From Thalassospira lucentensis (lineage in GTDB: Bacteria > Pseudomonadota > Alphaproteobacteria > Rhodospirillales > Thalassospiraceae), in contig NZ_JAATOV010000007.1 of NCBI RefSeq assembly GCF_011806425.1, positions 62,001-126,000 of the forward strand: DNA of 64,000 nt. Direction: 5' to 3'. The translations under genes and the position numbers were made by a program. The notes beneath the pieces were generated by a model. It had not been told where the DNA came from. It saw only the letters and a list, made by a program, of their open reading frames with translations, and did no database searches. Position 1 is the stretch's first letter. Every line of letters starts with the position of its first letter. Positions 22,186-52,886 of the stretch are shown here, in pieces.

Positions 22186-22386
22186 CTGGGGTGAGCCGTC
22201 TGAACATTGATCGGTGCAAGACTTTCAGCCTGCGAAGCCAAACAGAATGCACGATCTACGAAAGCCACATCACCAAAGAAACCCCAGATTGATTTGCAAT
22301 GCAGCATTTCGCGACGAGGGAAATCAAAGCATCCCACCAAGGGAATTGGCAGATCGCAAGATCAGCCTAAAACCCTGATTCCAGAC

Positions 22387-22520
22387 AAAAAAAAGGCCGC
22401 CTATGAAAGCGGCCCAAGTCTAGGGAGGAAACGTCCAAGAAACGAGCGAACAAGTCGCTCGCCGGAATGCACTGCGTCCTACCGCAGCGCACAAATGGAG
22501 ATTACTCATTTGCCGGGCGG
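22387..22520 (-). ncRNA. Candidate small RNA with exposed CCUCCC and own terminator
   Basis: On the minus strand this stretch folds into three consecutive hairpins (22492-22512, 22469-22490, 22443-22461), then an unpaired CGTTTCCTCCC (22423-22433), then a 6-bp GC stem (22395-22400 with 22409-22414) followed by eight T (22387-22394). The 22469-22490 hairpin has a G-U pair when read as minus-strand RNA but an A-C mismatch on the plus strand, which supports the minus-strand reading. There is no ORF. A free CCUCCC could act as an anti-Shine-Dalgarno seed. The promoter is weak to the eye (TTGATA at 22548-22553), so the 5' end is approximate. Confidence 0.5.
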
Positions 22521-23203: not shown

Positions 23204-24436
23204 CTAGTTCAAAGGCTGGTTAGCAGGACCACCGCCGGGCTGAGCTGATTTACCAGCAGCCATAGCACGACCATCCGCTGCAACAGACGTTTTGCGGCCA
23301 GAAAGCTCGCCGGCGATCATATCATCATGATCACGGCGTCTTTTGGCGTCATACATCCGCTGATCAGCGAGATCGATCAGATTTTGCGGCATGGCAATCG
23401 CATCTTCAAGGCGCTCAGCCACGCCTACACTCCCGCGCTGCACCTTACCCGCGCCCAAGCTTGCAAGCCCTGGCGTCATGACACGATCAAGAATACCTTC
23501 TGCATGCGCGGTATCCACTTCTGGCAAGAGCACAAGAAACTCTTCCCCACCCCATCGCACGACCATATCTGACAGTCGAAACCGGCTGATCAGGCTTTTG
23601 CCCACCTCGGCCAAAATGCGGTCACCGTAATCGTGCCCATTGCGATCATTGATCTGCTTAAAATCATCCAGATCGATAAAGGCGACGGTATAAGGCACAT
23701 TTTTGCGCACCGCGTTGTCAAACGTGACCCGCATCATTTCCAAACCAAAGGCACGGGTAAAGCACCCCGTCAGCGGATCAAATGCGACCTCTTGTGCGGC
23801 AACAATTGTGCGATAAAACTGCACCAATGACGACATAATCGCGAGCGGCAGCAGCACCGCCAAAATCATTTCAAGCGCAACAAATCCGGTGGCCAAGGTC
23901 ACCTGCGATGCAATACCCAGCAAAACCAAAATCGGCAAGGACAAAATCCCCGCCTCAACCAAGGTGAGCGGCATGATGGCGATCATCAACACCAGCCCCA
24001 GCAAAAGGAAGCTATGGGTACTGAACATACGCTGCGTTGCGAGCGGGTCCGCGGGCGCAAGCAGACTGAGCAAGCAAACTGCGAGCAGCAGCATAAACAT
24101 CGGGAGATATGGAAAATGCCGCCGCATCCGCGCACTGACCGCGCGATTAAAAATCACCGCAAGCGAAACCCCCGCAACCAGCAGGCGCATCATAAAGGTT
24201 TGCGAACCCCACATCCGCGCATCATAAACCCCATCCCAAACAGGGATAATGATCAGCAGAGCAAAAACAAAAATGGCGGCAAAACGGGCGGTGAGCTGGA
24301 TGGATTCTTTGCGGCGCAGGTGCAATATCTCTGCATGGCGCGGCGTGTACAGAAAATCCCTGTAGCGACACCGCAACAGCCCTACGCGACGCTGACTATC
24401 TATGGTGGAACAAGGCAGCACGCAAAAGAGCTCCAA
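23204..24436 (-). CDS. Membrane-bound diguanylate cyclase (GGDEF)
   Basis: Makes cyclic di-GMP from two GTP. The N-terminal half (about residues 48-205) has five to six hydrophobic helices. The GGDEF domain follows, with active site GGEEF at 296-300 and an inhibitory-site RxxD (RLSD, 287-290) five residues before it, so product inhibition is expected. The substrate segment FIDLDDFKQINDRNGHDYGD is intact. The C-terminus is a low-complexity tail (AAGKSAQPGGGPANQ). The TTG at 24436 has no clear ribosome site, so the true start may be up to about 40 codons downstream. It stands alone. Confidence 0.88.
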   Translation of the reverse strand: MELFCVLPCSTIDSQRRVGLLRCRYRDFLYTPRHAEILHLRRKESIQLTARFAAIFVFALLIIIPVWDGVYDARMWGSQTFMMRLLVAGVSLAVIFNRAVSARMRRHFPYLPMFMLLLAVCLLSLLAPADPLATQRMFSTHSFLLLGLVLMIAIMPLTLVEAGILSLPILVLLGIASQVTLATGFVALEMILAVLLPLAIMSSLVQFYRTIVAAQEVAFDPLTGCFTRAFGLEMMRVTFDNAVRKNVPYTVAFIDLDDFKQINDRNGHDYGDRILAEVGKSLISRFRLSDMVVRWGGEEFLVLLPEVDTAHAEGILDRVMTPGLASLGAGKVQRGSVGVAERLEDAIAMPQNLIDLADQRMYDAKRRRDHDDMIAGELSGRKTSVAADGRAMAAGKSAQPGGGPANQPLN

Positions 24437-47883: not shown

Positions 47884-49974
47884 ATGTGTTTTTTTGGGGG
47901 CACTTTGCGCGAAGTTCGCCAGTTCTTGGCATTGTGCGGCATTTGGGCCGTTGTGATCATTGCCCTTATCGGTTCCATGACATCGTTTGGGTCTATCGCA
48001 TCGGCACAGACCGAAATGCCCCAGCTTGTCTTGCCTGCAAAGGGGATCGCCGCGCACATTGACCTCAACCGGTTTATGGAGCGCCTTCAAGCAGATCTTC
48101 CGATCGAGACCCCTGTCGATTTGATCGACACGCCATCTTCGGAATTTGAACGCGTCGAAGGCACACCTGCTGCTGGGTATATCAAGCGGATGGTTTGGTA
48201 CCGATTACCGTTTTCCGTTACCGCCCAAGACAAAAATGTCTTTACGCCAACATATATCGAAATTGGTCCACCGCACCTTAATGAGATCAACGTCTTTGTC
48301 ATCGACGACAAGACGCGAAATGTCGTCTGGAACAATAGACTTGGTGACCGGATTCCCAATGGTCCCAAAACGCTCAGCAGCCTAAAGCACCTTTCGGAAT
48401 GGCCGGTTTTAACCGTGGGACAGTATTGGTTAATCATCGGAATACAAACCACCAGTGCCCATATTTTTCAGGCAAAGCTTTACGCCCAAGCTGAAATGAT
48501 CTCCGACACCGAAGAACATAACCTTTTGCACAGCAGCTTTCTTGGCGTTCTGCTGGTCTTGTTTGGGGTTTATCTGACGTTTGGCATCATTACGCGCGAC
48601 AAGTCCATTCTTTGTTACAGCTTTTATGTCGCATCCATATTGATGATCAATTTGGGCACCTCGGGTTATGCCCAACTGGTTTTAAAAGATATGTGGCCAC
48701 ACGCCAGCGACTTTGTTGTCGGTGCCGGTTCGGCACTTTCAATCGGTTCGGTGATCGCGATGTGGGCGCATATTATTCGGCTTGATCATTACAATCCGCC
48801 GGTTTACCGGGCCATGCTGATCTTTTCCGTATTGGCAATTGCGGGTTCTGTCACCGCCATATCGGATTCCTATATCTATTTCATGCGAATCTTCCTTGTC
48901 CCCGTTCTGGCTTTGATGATCACGCTATTTATCTATCTGTTTTATATTGCCTATCGTGAAAAGCGGATCGCGTCGCATCTGTATTTTTTGATCGCACTTG
49001 GTCTGCCATCGCTTGCCGCTATTGTCACTGTTTTCGCATTGCTTGGTGCCCTGCCGATCACGGCGTTTACAGCCAACATGCACCAGTACAGCTCTTTTGT
49101 GCATCTCGCGATGCTTGCGATTGCGATGGGGTATCGCACTTACAAACTGACACGTCAGTCAAGTAAAGCTCATCATAACAATCGCCGGGTCGATCAGCTT
49201 GCTGGGGAACAACGCACCTTCATTACGATGCTGTCGCATGAGTTCCGTACACCACTGGCGATCATTCAACGGTCTGCCGAAATTCTTGGACTACATATGC
49301 GAAGTGAACCCGTCGCGGTCCATAACCGCCTTGCCACCATTCGCGGGAACGCAGCGCAGCTTTCTGGATTGGTTGATGCCTTTCTGACCAAGGAAACACT
49401 TGATAGCGCAAACTTCACCACATCCTTGCAGCCAACCAACATCGATGAATTGCTACGTGAATTGATCAGCCAGCGTAATCGCGAAACCCCTGATCATCAG
49501 GTTGGGTTTAGAAATGTCGATTTTGCTGTCGTTAATATTGACCGCATTCTGTTTGAACGTGCGATTATCAACTTGATCGAAAATGCCCGAAAATACGCAC
49601 CCGGCGCGCCAGTATGGATCGCGTGTAATCGGGCATCAAACGGGTTTGTCTATATTCGGGTTATTGACGACGGTCCCGGTATTCCGCTTGATGATCTTTC
49701 GCGCGTATCTAGTGCGTTTTACCGAGGACAAGATGCGGGCGTCACCCAAGGTGTTGGCCTTGGCCTGCACATCACCAACCGCATTATCGAGGCTCATAAC
49801 GGATCGATGTCAATCTCTGTCGGTGAAAATGCCGGCACCACGGTGATGATCAAAATCCCCTATAACCGGAAAGAAACAGTCCAAAAATCCAACTCGGATT
49901 TCTTTACATTACCGACCAGTCAGCGGGCAAAAGATCGTCCTGATCAGAATGATGATGGGGCTAAGAAGTCATGA
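47884..49974 (+). CDS. 7TMR-DISM sensor histidine kinase, apparently active
   Basis: A 696-aa membrane sensor. A signal-like helix (about 12-40) is followed by a periplasmic 7TMR-DISM extracellular-type domain (about 45-205, with MVWYRLPFSV), seven hydrophobic helices (about 215-425), then a kinase core: phosphoacceptor His452 (MLSHEFRTPLA), N box NLIENA with Asn567, G1 box DDGPG (595-599) and G2 box GVGLGL. All ATP-site motifs are intact. The start is uncertain: the ATG at 47884 lacks a good ribosome site. It overlaps the second kinase gene by 4 bp, and a response regulator gene ends just beyond that. Confidence 0.88.
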   Translation: MCFFGGTLREVRQFLALCGIWAVVIIALIGSMTSFGSIASAQTEMPQLVLPAKGIAAHIDLNRFMERLQADLPIETPVDLIDTPSSEFERVEGTPAAGYIKRMVWYRLPFSVTAQDKNVFTPTYIEIGPPHLNEINVFVIDDKTRNVVWNNRLGDRIPNGPKTLSSLKHLSEWPVLTVGQYWLIIGIQTTSAHIFQAKLYAQAEMISDTEEHNLLHSSFLGVLLVLFGVYLTFGIITRDKSILCYSFYVASILMINLGTSGYAQLVLKDMWPHASDFVVGAGSALSIGSVIAMWAHIIRLDHYNPPVYRAMLIFSVLAIAGSVTAISDSYIYFMRIFLVPVLALMITLFIYLFYIAYREKRIASHLYFLIALGLPSLAAIVTVFALLGALPITAFTANMHQYSSFVHLAMLAIAMGYRTYKLTRQSSKAHHNNRRVDQLAGEQRTFITMLSHEFRTPLAIIQRSAEILGLHMRSEPVAVHNRLATIRGNAAQLSGLVDAFLTKETLDSANFTTSLQPTNIDELLRELISQRNRETPDHQVGFRNVDFAVVNIDRILFERAIINLIENARKYAPGAPVWIACNRASNGFVYIRVIDDGPGIPLDDLSRVSSAFYRGQDAGVTQGVGLGLHITNRIIEAHNGSMSISVGENAGTTVMIKIPYNRKETVQKSNSDFFTLPTSQRAKDRPDQNDDGAKKS

Positions 49975-52022
49975 ATATCTCAGCCCGATCAATTCGTCAT
50001 TTCGTCAAACGCATGACGCTATTGCGCGAAAATTTCAATCGCGCATATGGGGCAACTTTGCGGGGCTTTACGCTCGCGACCCTACTCATTGTTTTTACAA
50101 TGATAATTGGGGGGAATGCTGCACAGGCCCATGGCAGCACACCGCCTACCGCGGGACATGCCGATGAAATTGTATTGGGCGGAACACTTCCTGGGAAACT
50201 CGACCTAACCCCGTATCTTTCTTGGTATGTCGACAAAAGCAAACAGATGCCCCTTGAGGCTGTGCGTACGCTTTCGCTGCAGGATTTCAGCCAAAGTAAG
50301 GGCATCCCATCATTTGGCTATACGACAAATATCATCTGGTACCGGGTCGATTTTTCTGTGGATCAGGTTTGGGACGCACGCCCCTTGATCGAGGTACAGC
50401 CCAATTACCTCAATTTCATTGATATGTATCTTTTCAAAGAGACACAAAGTGCCAAAGGAACAAACGCCCTTTGGCACACGAGCATGGGCGACCACATTCC
50501 TTCAAGCCAAAGACCGTATAAAGGTGAGTCTCATGTCGCGGATTTACCGCAACTTGATACCGGGTCGTATCAGTTGTTTATTCGCGTACAATCGAACAGT
50601 GCCAACTTGCTTACACTTACGCTTTGGCAGTCCAACGACCTGATTTCGTCGATTACACGACGCAACCTTGTGGCCAATGTCTTCTTTGGCATTTTTATCA
50701 GTATTGGCATTTCGTATTTCATCCTTGGCCTGATCGCACGTGATGCGGTGGTTGTCACGTATGGGCTTTGGATTGCGTCCGTGGGGATGGTGATATCGAT
50801 TGTTGATGGCTTTGGCTTAAGCCACCTGCGCCCGGAAGTCCCATGGATTAACGACCTGATTTTGGGCGGCTCCAACATTATATCGCAAGCTGTGGGCATT
50901 TTCCTATGGCTACATATTATGGACTTCCGCAACCGCGCACCCAAGGTATTTTGGCTCGGCATGGTGTATTGCGCCGTCATTTTAAGTTTCATCGTTGGGA
51001 CGACGAACGATCTTTACACCATCTTTGGCGCTTATATCGCCCCGTCAGTGTCGGTTTTCATGGCCTGCATGTGCTTGGTTTTGGTCAAACGCCTGATTTA
51101 TGATTTCAGAAACCCAGCACTTTGGGCCTATTTAGTCGCCCTCGCCCTGCCCAGTACCGCAGCCATTATGTTGCAACTGTCCCACACAGGCTGGATCCAG
51201 GCCACCCCACTGACCCTTGGGCTGCATCAGTTCACGTTTATATTTCACGTATTTGCAATGGGCTTATTGATGGCGATACGCCTGTTGCAGCTTGAGCGCG
51301 ACAGAGTAATCGCTTCAAACAAAGCCGAGGAAACCACGTCGCTTGTTGGAGAGCAACGCAAGCTCATTTCAATGCTATCGCACGAGTTTCGAACCCCGCT
51401 TGCCGTTATTCAACGATCGGCGGAGATGTTAATGCTGCTATCAAAGAAGCAAAGCGACGACGTCTGGGCACGATTGCAACGCATTCAATTTCAGGCCACC
51501 AAACTCGCCCGCCTCGTTGATATTTTCCTGAACAAAGACGGCATTGACGATAAGGAGTTTTCGCTCGCGCGGGAGCCCGCAAATATAAATGACTTCATGG
51601 CAGAATTTGTCAAAGATACAAGTCGCGCAGACGCCAAAATTATTCTGAGATGTATCGATACCGAGGCTGTCGAAGCCTATATCGACGAGCCGTTAATGGC
51701 GCTGGTCATGACCAACCTTGTCGAGACGTCACGGCGTTTTGCGCGCGGCACACCAATTGGCATTCAAGTCCGCCTGCAAAACAGCCAACTGGCCGAAATA
51801 TCAATCCCCTGCCAAGGCGAAGACCTAAACGATGAGGAAGTGTTGCTGATCGGAAATGCTTTGTTCCGACGAGACTTGGAAACAAAGTCGCTGCGCAATG
51901 CGCTGGGCCTTCACATTTCCCAACGCATTATTGACGCACATGGTGGGTCGATAAAGTTGCGTGACTTGGGAACCAACGGCATTGAACTATGCGTTCTATT
52001 GCCCTGTGAAGTTCTGACTTAG
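49971..52022 (+). CDS. 7TMR-DISM histidine-kinase homologue with degenerate ATP domain
   Basis: A 683-aa paralogue of the preceding kinase with the same layout: signal-like helix, DISM-type periplasmic domain, seven helices, then a DHp domain whose phosphoacceptor His471 is intact in MLSHEFRTPLAVIQRSAE. The C-terminal ATP domain aligns along its length but the motifs are gone: the N-box asparagine is Thr586 (NLVETS), G1 DDGPG is PCQGE (about 613-617), and G2 GVGLGL is NALGL. The frame is open throughout, so it is not a broken gene. I infer a pseudokinase that could be phosphorylated by, or form a heterodimer with, its neighbour. Confidence 0.85.
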   Translation: MNISARSIRHFVKRMTLLRENFNRAYGATLRGFTLATLLIVFTMIIGGNAAQAHGSTPPTAGHADEIVLGGTLPGKLDLTPYLSWYVDKSKQMPLEAVRTLSLQDFSQSKGIPSFGYTTNIIWYRVDFSVDQVWDARPLIEVQPNYLNFIDMYLFKETQSAKGTNALWHTSMGDHIPSSQRPYKGESHVADLPQLDTGSYQLFIRVQSNSANLLTLTLWQSNDLISSITRRNLVANVFFGIFISIGISYFILGLIARDAVVVTYGLWIASVGMVISIVDGFGLSHLRPEVPWINDLILGGSNIISQAVGIFLWLHIMDFRNRAPKVFWLGMVYCAVILSFIVGTTNDLYTIFGAYIAPSVSVFMACMCLVLVKRLIYDFRNPALWAYLVALALPSTAAIMLQLSHTGWIQATPLTLGLHQFTFIFHVFAMGLLMAIRLLQLERDRVIASNKAEETTSLVGEQRKLISMLSHEFRTPLAVIQRSAEMLMLLSKKQSDDVWARLQRIQFQATKLARLVDIFLNKDGIDDKEFSLAREPANINDFMAEFVKDTSRADAKIILRCIDTEAVEAYIDEPLMALVMTNLVETSRRFARGTPIGIQVRLQNSQLAEISIPCQGEDLNDEEVLLIGNALFRRDLETKSLRNALGLHISQRIIDAHGGSIKLRDLGTNGIELCVLLPCEVLT

Positions 52023-52077: not shown

Positions 52078-52845
52078 TTAGGATTGATCGTCCGCTTCAA
52101 TGTCGCCTTCGGCTTCGCCGGAGACCGATCCAACAGATGTGAAAGCGTAACCACGGCCATATGCGGTCCGCACCGGAAGTTCTTCACCAGTTTGTTTTAG
52201 GACTTTTTGGCGTACCCGTCGGATCGCGGTATCAAGGTTACGGCAATTTTCCGCTGTATCCGCCTTGCCGAGCGCAATAACGATCTCGGGTCTGGTCAGC
52301 CACGCACCATCCGCCTCAATCAACAGCTTTACAATTGTACGTTCGGCCGCGGTCAGCGATGCCGGTGTCCCCTTTGGGTTCAACAACGTCCAATTAAGCA
52401 TATCGAGAACCCAGCTATCTTGTTCTGCTGGGCTGCTGTCCCCGCCTTTATTATCGGCGCGCGATGCGCGTCGAAGAAGCGGCTGCAAGGCGGCTTCAAT
52501 CACGGACAAGGGGCTGTCTTTGGTCAGATAAACGTCCGCACCGGACTTATAGCCCGTCAGGTGGTTGTCCATCCCCGAGAGGGATGTCAGCATCATGATC
52601 CCGCAATCAATATTCTGACGAACATGTTTGGCAAGATCGTAACCATCGGCATCAGGCAGCATGATATCAAGAATGACAGCGTGGGGCTTTTTCTGCTCAA
52701 GCGCGCGGTAGAAGCTTGCACCGGTTTCACATCCGGTGACGTCAAAGCCGCACATTTCAAGATATTCACAAAGGTCTTTGTTCAGATCGATGTTGTCTTC
52801 AACGACAAAGACGCATTGCCCCGTCTGACCTTGACTTGATGTCAT
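52078..52845 (-). CDS. OmpR-like two-component response regulator
   Basis: A 255-aa regulator. The receiver domain (about 9-125) has the acidic pair Glu16-Asp17, phosphorylation site Asp60 (VILDIMLPDADG), Thr87 and Lys109. After a linker (ADNKGGDSSPAEQ) comes a winged-helix DNA-binding domain (about 145-235) with TAAERTIVKLLIEADGAWLTR. The start at 52845 is preferred to a TTG at 52875. It faces the two kinases and ends 55 bp from the second, so it is the natural partner of the pair. Confidence 0.9.
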   Translation of the reverse strand: MTSSQGQTGQCVFVVEDNIDLNKDLCEYLEMCGFDVTGCETGASFYRALEQKKPHAVILDIMLPDADGYDLAKHVRQNIDCGIMMLTSLSGMDNHLTGYKSGADVYLTKDSPLSVIEAALQPLLRRASRADNKGGDSSPAEQDSWVLDMLNWTLLNPKGTPASLTAAERTIVKLLIEADGAWLTRPEIVIALGKADTAENCRNLDTAIRRVRQKVLKQTGEELPVRTAYGRGYAFTSVGSVSGEAEGDIEADDQS

Positions 52846-52886
52846 ACTTTTTTCCGAAGTCTGTAAGCGCGACAATTCATCGATAA

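Follow-up and report, generated by a model that had tools for sequence, protein, structure and literature searches.

The locus considered here lies in a stretch of 64,000 nucleotides (nt) of Thalassospira lucentensis DNA (the whole stretch analysed, hereafter the window; its host genome, of 4.5 Mb, is called G000), and it consists of two tandem genes for sensor histidine kinases, SK1 and SK2, with an adjoining gene for a response regulator, RR. SK1 (47884-49974, plus strand) encodes a 7TMR-DISM sensor histidine kinase of 696 amino acids with intact ATP-binding motifs, and SK2 (49971-52022, plus strand), the frame of which stays open over 683 codons, encodes a paralogue of 683 amino acids, predicted to be ATP-dead, in which the phospho-acceptor histidine is kept and the ATP motifs are lost. 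The original prediction, drawn from the letters of the window, held that both kinases share one layout and a 4-bp overlap and that only SK1 keeps an ATP site, and our analysis agrees on each point. The overlap is the tetranucleotide ATGA (49971-49974, plus strand), formed by the stop of SK1 and a candidate start of SK2, and Pfam finds the same four domains, 7TMR-DISMED2, 7TMR-DISM_7TM, HisKA and HATPase_c, in both proteins. RR (52078-52875, minus strand) is convergent to the pair, 55 bp from the end of SK2, and belongs to the OmpR/PhoB class, since Pfam and residue inspection of the window's copy show the acidic pair, phospho-Asp, Thr and Lys of a REC domain together with a winged helix (Trans_reg_C).

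The sensor domain 7TMR-DISMED2 is matched weakly in SK1 (residues 85-199, 48136-48480, 29.8 bits) and strongly in SK2 (residues 81-220, 50211-50630, 74.9 bits). The phospho-acceptor of SK1 is His452 (49237-49239), and its HATPase_c domain (49540-49863) has the N box, G1 and G2 intact. In SK2 the sensor is followed by a 7TMR-DISM_7TM membrane domain (residues 232-436, 50664-51278, 46.0 bits), a HisKA domain, the dimerization and histidine phosphotransfer (DHp) part of the kinase (51354-51530, 34.7 bits), which is the most conserved part of the protein by the ratio of nonsynonymous to synonymous substitution (dN/dS), and a degenerate HATPase_c domain (51684-51980), all of these on the plus strand. 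His471 of SK2 (51381-51383) stands in the sequence HEFRT, an HExxT motif of phosphatase type.

Loss of the ATP-binding residues in SK2

The catalytic and ATP-binding (CA) domains of the pair differ widely in their match to the HATPase_c profile, with 80.5 bits for SK1 versus 30.3 bits for SK2, which nevertheless passes the curated threshold of 26.4. Motif alignment placed His471 in an intact H box, SMLSHEFRTPLA, and upheld the three substitutions originally read in SK2: Thr586 at the position of the N-box Asn (51726-51728), PCQGE at G1 (51807-51821), where Cys614 replaces the Asp, and NALGL at G2 (51897-51911), where the residues RNA, directly before LGL, align with the GxG. The counterparts in SK1 are NLIENARKYA, DDGPG and GVGLGL.

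As a same-genome control we used the 30 HisKA (PF00512) matches of G000 at an E-value of up to 0.001, other DHp families being outside the control. Among these 30 kinases the N-box Asn is missing from SK2 alone and the G1 Asp from SK2 and one other, and only SK2 combines an intact His with the loss of both ATP residues; it ranks 42nd of the 44 HATPase_c matches in the genome. Motif loss by chance is ruled out by this control. SK2 is thus a HisKA kinase by fold and domains, but it lacks the residues of an active kinase (N-box Asn and G1 Asp), and these residues lead us to predict that it is a histidine pseudokinase. The other kinase without the G1 Asp, L151 (G000:C10:21941-22138), has Asn instead (SNNGDVV) and keeps its H box, N box and G2. 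L156 (G000:C4:1149781-1149975), of the same genome, has no His in its H box (SREL) and shows degenerate CA motifs (LSDEAP).

Conservation of the pair in the genus

The block thiD-glmM-SK1-SK2-RR-folP-ftsH is present in each of the 29 Thalassospira genomes that form our genus set, and SK2 is full length and open in all of them. The 4-bp overlap is possible in 22 genomes, and candidate starts leave a gap of 1-4 nt in the other seven. At the position of His471 every SK2 has His, within HEFRT, and none has the G1 Asp, which is replaced by Cys (20 genomes), His (6) or Tyr (3). The N-box position holds Thr in 23 genomes and Asn in 6, and the first and second glycines of the G2 GxG are found in only 1 and 4 of the 29, respectively, all of them among the six divergent genomes with N-box Asn, which also lack the G1 Asp; in the other 23 the N-box Asn and both glycines are absent together. 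SK1, by comparison, has the G1 Asp and the N-box Asn in 29/29 genomes and the phospho-acceptor His in 28/29 (a run of N interrupts the SK1 of G020, which contributes its C-terminal part to the motif counts and nothing to the other SK1 counts). The orthologue pairs therefore repeat what the window shows, with the G1 Asp absent from SK2 and kept in SK1 throughout. No SK2 orthologue with intact ATP motifs, which the original prediction had named as the sign of a recent decay, was found among the 29 genomes, the nearest being the six with N-box Asn and without the G1 Asp. A sequencing or frame artefact is rejected because the G1 loss recurs in 29/29 genomes.

The exception in SK1 is G006 (L035/L062; sequence the same as that of T. 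lucentensis DSM 14000), where the phospho-acceptor is Tyr, encoded by TAC versus CAC in the near relative G005, a change of one base, and where the ATP motifs of SK1 and the His of SK2 are intact. The five key REC residues of RR, phospho-Asp70 included, are the same in all 29 genomes. Both sensor-side domains of SK2, DISMED2 and 7TM, are matched in every member at E up to 10, the 7TM score of G002 and G011 being slightly below its cut-off. Compared with G005, identity is 65% for SK1, 65% for SK2, 82% for the regulator and 97% for both glmM and ftsH, that is, both kinases diverge faster than the neighbouring genes. In the SK2 proteins of G009, G010, G013, G017 and G019 the hairpin loop of the DHp domain is extended by about 9 residues and the F/lid region by about 20, insertions absent from the 24 other SK2 proteins aligned.

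Selection on the two kinases

Selection was estimated from pairwise Nei-Gojobori dN/dS, combined across six closely related pairs (12 of the 29 genomes), a counts-based and rough measure; the window's own genome is outside these pairs, and four further pairs were calculated and left out of the pool. The pooled values for SK2 were 0.019 (DHp), 0.071 (CA), 0.145 (sensor) and 0.144 (7TM), and those for SK1 were 0.032, 0.045, 0.154 and 0.178 for the same domains, the two DHp values being based on only 2 and 4 nonsynonymous changes; the regulator gave 0.046 (REC) and 0.036. The ratio is thus below 1 in all four domains of SK2, and the dead CA domain, slightly less constrained than the live CA domain of SK1, is yet far from neutral. 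Values for single domains are rough because dS is uneven, as in the pair G015-G021, where it is 0.99 in the 7TM domain of SK1, which looks recombinant, and only 0.21-0.36 elsewhere in SK1.

The loss of the ATP motifs, taken alone, would suit a decaying duplicate without function. We consider this highly improbable, given that all 29 genomes hold a full-length SK2 at this locus and that its dN/dS is far below 1 in every domain, the dead one included. Recent decay was considered separately and is ruled out by the full length, the genus-wide G1 loss and the purifying selection. The view of the original prediction that SK2 is functional is therefore well supported, and the parts it suggested, phosphoacceptor, inhibitor or heterodimer partner, are all candidate roles.

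Origin of the pair and order of the losses

Outside the genus, the N, G1 and G2 motifs are canonical in six kinases of the same architecture and in a seventh of another architecture. These motifs were taken from 7 kinases in 6 genomes, many other matches in the order covering the kinase part only; the kinase of G254, which has a frame break in CA and reads as canonical on both sides of it, was left out. No second DISM kinase adjoins the first at the six outgroup loci of this architecture, and in G063 another kinase core lies about 2.5 kb upstream of the DISM kinase. A regulator adjoins the outgroup kinase in two of the six (G088 and G171), and none like RR was found at the other four loci. Since these loci hold a single DISM kinase, some of them with a regulator, one kinase and one regulator is a plausible ancestral set. 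In G171 (67% complete) DISMED2 and the 7TM kinase are on separate frames (L128, 1447-2106 and 2142-3383), with the regulator adjoining, which is either a true split or an assembly error. A limited look for SK2-like degenerate copies outside the genus saw none in a scan that took in 199 genomes from the order (up to 6 candidates scored in each, with E no higher than 1e-20) and 385 from the class (up to 3 in each, with E no higher than 1e-45), the two samples overlapping and including genus members.

A tree of 34 rows, which drew on 14 genomes out of the 28 usable ones and on six of the 7 outgroup kinases (the 797-amino-acid G088b was dropped), recovered SK1 as one clade (support 98/96) and SK2 as another (100/100). 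The same early split, of G025, G009, G010 and G017 from the rest, appears in both clades, with a support of only 91/83 and 91/88. By this tree, the duplication predates the diversification of Thalassospira, and together with the genus-wide G1 loss and the intact outgroup motifs this speaks against a recent decay. SK2 identity is lowest in the six genomes with N-box Asn, and by parsimony over these sequences the losses most likely began with the G1 motif, the N box and G2 following. G1 may also have been lost twice, given that six genomes have His in its place and 23 have Cys or Tyr; the codons concerned, CAT/CAC, TAT and TGC/TGT, are compatible with one stepwise path as well.

The sensor side of the pair

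Domains were scored one by one in 11 of the 29 pairs. SK1 scored 72.9-86.8 bits for HATPase_c and 21.4-56.8 bits for DISMED2, with no DISMED2 match at E 0.001 in 3 of the 11, and SK2 scored 30.3-40.3 and 67.0-85.6 bits, respectively. The six outgroup relatives are high on both (72.4-88.4 and 82.9-107.3 bits), the domains of G171 being scored on their separate frames. Arg181 of SK2, in a GDxxPxxxRP stretch, is conserved in 29/29 SK2 and in four of the five outgroup sensors aligned, and in 0/28 SK1; Arg205 occurs in 29/29 SK2, 5/5 outgroup sensors and 8/28 SK1. The DISMED2 domain of SK1, in the window and in the orthologues, has departed from the family consensus.

These patterns would fit one kinase split by reciprocal loss, with SK2 holding the ancestral-type sensor, the His and the docking face and SK1 the ATP site, so that the two would act only together, as a heteromeric receptor in which phosphate passes between subunits, and would work as a logic gate. 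We regard this as possible but rather doubtful. The columns conserved in the outgroups clearly back reciprocal loss in the CA domain, where SK1 retains 9 that SK2 has lost and 1 shows the opposite, but hardly do so in the sensor, where the numbers are 2 versus 3 and the mean retention is 0.33 versus 0.40. Reciprocal loss is further opposed by the DISMED2 match of all 28 SK1 proteins at E up to 10 and by the SK1 sensor, which is not relaxed (dN/dS 0.154 versus 0.145 in SK2). Because the sensor columns give so little backing and the SK1 sensor is under such constraint, reciprocal loss was not adopted as a conclusion; alternatively, the SK1 sensor may read a different ligand.

DHp similarity, regulator docking and predicted structure

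SK1 and SK2 are most alike in the DHp domain, where their identity is 0.495; the remaining three domains give 0.245-0.285. In the part of helix 1 that follows the His they agree at 9 of 13 positions, which puts them joint second among the 435 kinase pairs of the genome, and they are the only ones of the 30 HisKA kinases with Arg at His+11. The helix-1 positions +8, +11 and +15 set the choice of regulator, and we take them to be among the positions altered in the HK853 rewiring structure, its His being assumed to be residue 260. The docking residues common to SK1 and SK2 are absent from the 28 remaining HisKA kinases that the genome encodes. This shared set argues for a common docking face, through which SK1 and SK2 would dock the same regulator. 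It also tells against SK2 being a receptor for another pathway, independent of SK1 and RR, which we consider very unlikely, as the two genes overlap or are at most 4 nt apart in 29/29 genomes and the regulator is always adjacent.

AlphaFold single-chain models had a mean predicted local distance difference test (pLDDT) score of 77.0 for SK2 (23 sequences) and 73.8 for SK1 (22 sequences). In SK2 the CA blocks reach 80-90, except for residues 631-650 and the last block, and the DHp domain 54-75. The best PDB matches of the SK2 model were histidine-kinase cores, including RetS and GacS, and in a comparison with viral structures the top matches were mainly histidine kinases. In the model SK2 appears to keep the kinase fold with the pocket residues gone. 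A weak or unusual kinase that still binds nucleotide could be read from the predicted kinase-CA secondary structure with these pLDDT values, from a HATPase_c score above the cut-off and from the six genomes with N-box Asn, and DivL, a crippled kinase of Caulobacter crescentus, is described as still weakly binding the ATP analogue TNP-ATP (PMC4211667). We find it unlikely nevertheless, considering the G1 Asp, missing from every SK2, and the joint loss of the N-box Asn and both G2 glycines in 23 of the 29.

Proposed mechanism

SK1 and SK2 probably function jointly as one receptor. We hypothesize, with a probability of roughly 0.5, that SK2 is an ATP-dead partner that feeds the same regulator as SK1: its His471 would most likely take phosphate from SK1, and SK2 would dephosphorylate the regulator as well. 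A single 7TMR-DISM sensor kinase would have been duplicated in tandem before Thalassospira diversified, and SK2 would then have lost its ATP-site residues and retained the sensor, the membrane domain and the DHp helices. The two proteins would dimerize through their similar DHp domains, the ATPase domain of SK1 would phosphorylate His471 of SK2 in trans, and SK2 would hand the phosphate to the adjacent OmpR-type regulator and, in another state, strip it off. The signal read by SK2 would thereby control an output powered by the ATP of SK1. The only natural result that speaks for transfer to SK2 rather than simple inhibition is the His to Tyr change in the SK1 of G006, a single genome.

The HEFRT sequence, present in 29/29 genomes, fits the HE/DxxN/T motif of bifunctional HisKA phosphatases (PMC3591291) and predicts such an activity for SK2. 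It also fits the main rival, in which SK2 is a signal-controlled brake like RetS, inhibiting SK1 by DHp-DHp pairing and/or dephosphorylating the regulator, and its His never carries phosphate outward. We consider this a realistic prospect at somewhat less than even odds. RetS is reported to inhibit GacS, to take its phosphate and to have transmitter phosphatase activity (PMC5992135), the RetS-GacS pairing is described as DHp to DHp (PMC12148439), and the SK2 model has RetS cores among its PDB matches. On the other hand, the SK1 of G006, without a phospho-acceptor His, is easier to explain if the His of SK2 takes the phosphate, and an invariant His is unneeded in a pure inhibitor, DivL having Tyr there (PMC4211667), although neither point is decisive.

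Several observations weigh against phosphotransfer to SK2. The change in G006 concerns one genome and one base, and the conservation of the SK2 His equally fits a phosphatase or a phosphate sink. The mechanism comes from sequence comparison and the heterodimer is predicted, the AlphaFold models being single-chain and of low confidence in the SK2 DHp domain. SK1 could act alone, because it keeps its own His (28/29) and ATP site. In the ChrS/HrrS precedent the His of the pseudokinase was dispensable and truncated ChrS is reported without HrrS interaction (PMC9491836), and LadS is described as working without heterodimers (PMC4866733). The nearest pair of the window genome, G000-G005, gives dN/dS values of 0.06 (DHp) and 0.12 (CA) for SK2, but at a dS of 1.65-2.11, near saturation.

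The reason why duplicated sensor kinases keep an ATP-less copy is little studied, as far as the literature searched shows. Here a live SK1, a dead SK2 and a single regulator stand at one locus, the loss can be traced across 29 genomes, and one genome has an SK1 that lacks its own phospho-acceptor. Because SK1, SK2 and RR adjoin, the loss is traceable and G006 offers an SK1 without the His, inter-subunit transfer and inhibition can be directly tested against each other in a marine genus.

Other features of the window

Promoter-like sites showed no excess, with 4 found versus a mean of 7.0 in shuffles, and terminator-like sites numbered 9 versus a mean of 6.4. An Rfam match places suhB/mmgR (RF00519), a small RNA family, at 22380-22450 (minus strand), and ARAGORN calls a 96-nt tRNA-Lys at 23467-23562 (minus strand), which is without an Rfam listing at gathering and possibly false.

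Comparison with known systems

RetS, of Pseudomonas aeruginosa, carries a 7TMR-DISM sensor, is a hybrid kinase, and its target kinase is not known to be its tandem twin. Together with GacS it is described as a kinase that modulates another by DHp-DHp contact and has transmitter phosphatase activity (PMC5992135, PMC12148439), and SK2 may act in a similar way; for SK2 the contact is predicted from the DHp identity of 0.495. Unlike RetS, SK2 is non-hybrid, is the tandem paralogue of its presumed partner, stands beside one regulator and has the G1 and N boxes erased.

Split kinases offer a second comparison. In CheA3/CheA4 of Rhodobacter sphaeroides, the phospho-acceptor and the ATPase are reported on two proteins that are active only together (PMC3591291), but there whole domains are missing and the proteins are chemotaxis CheAs of a cytoplasmic cluster, whereas SK1 and SK2 are domain-complete, with a residue-wise erosion of the ATP site, in a predicted membrane receptor. 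The products of two genes, Hik36 and Hik43 of Synechocystis, are likewise reported as one split kinase for one regulator, Rre6, although their domain diagram is CheA-like (HPT, DIM, CA and CheW-interaction) and neither is a degenerate tandem paralogue in the diagram given (PMC7656254). A split kinase consists of two proteins that are inactive singly and phosphorylate when mixed, and SK1, which has its own His in 28/29 genomes and an ATP site, may be active alone.

Pseudokinases offer a third. In Corynebacterium glutamicum a CA-dead ChrS is reported to raise the output of its active paralogue HrrS, and the native paralogues heterodimerise (PMC9491836). That pseudokinase, however, is a laboratory frameshift mutant of a kind which, by the same account, is undescribed in nature in corynebacteria; its His is dispensable, and no two-hybrid interaction was seen with the truncated form (PMC9491836). 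DivL is described as a natural histidine pseudokinase with a regulatory job, but its His is replaced by Tyr550 and it has no DivK phosphatase activity, while SK2 keeps the His and has lost the ATP residues (PMC4211667). In the literature searched, which left subscription journals mostly outside, we found no membrane paralogue that stands in tandem, keeps all its domains and its His, is ATP-dead and is conserved across a genus. Both histidine pseudokinases and split kinases are already known, and the kind of pair formed by SK1 and SK2 differs from these.

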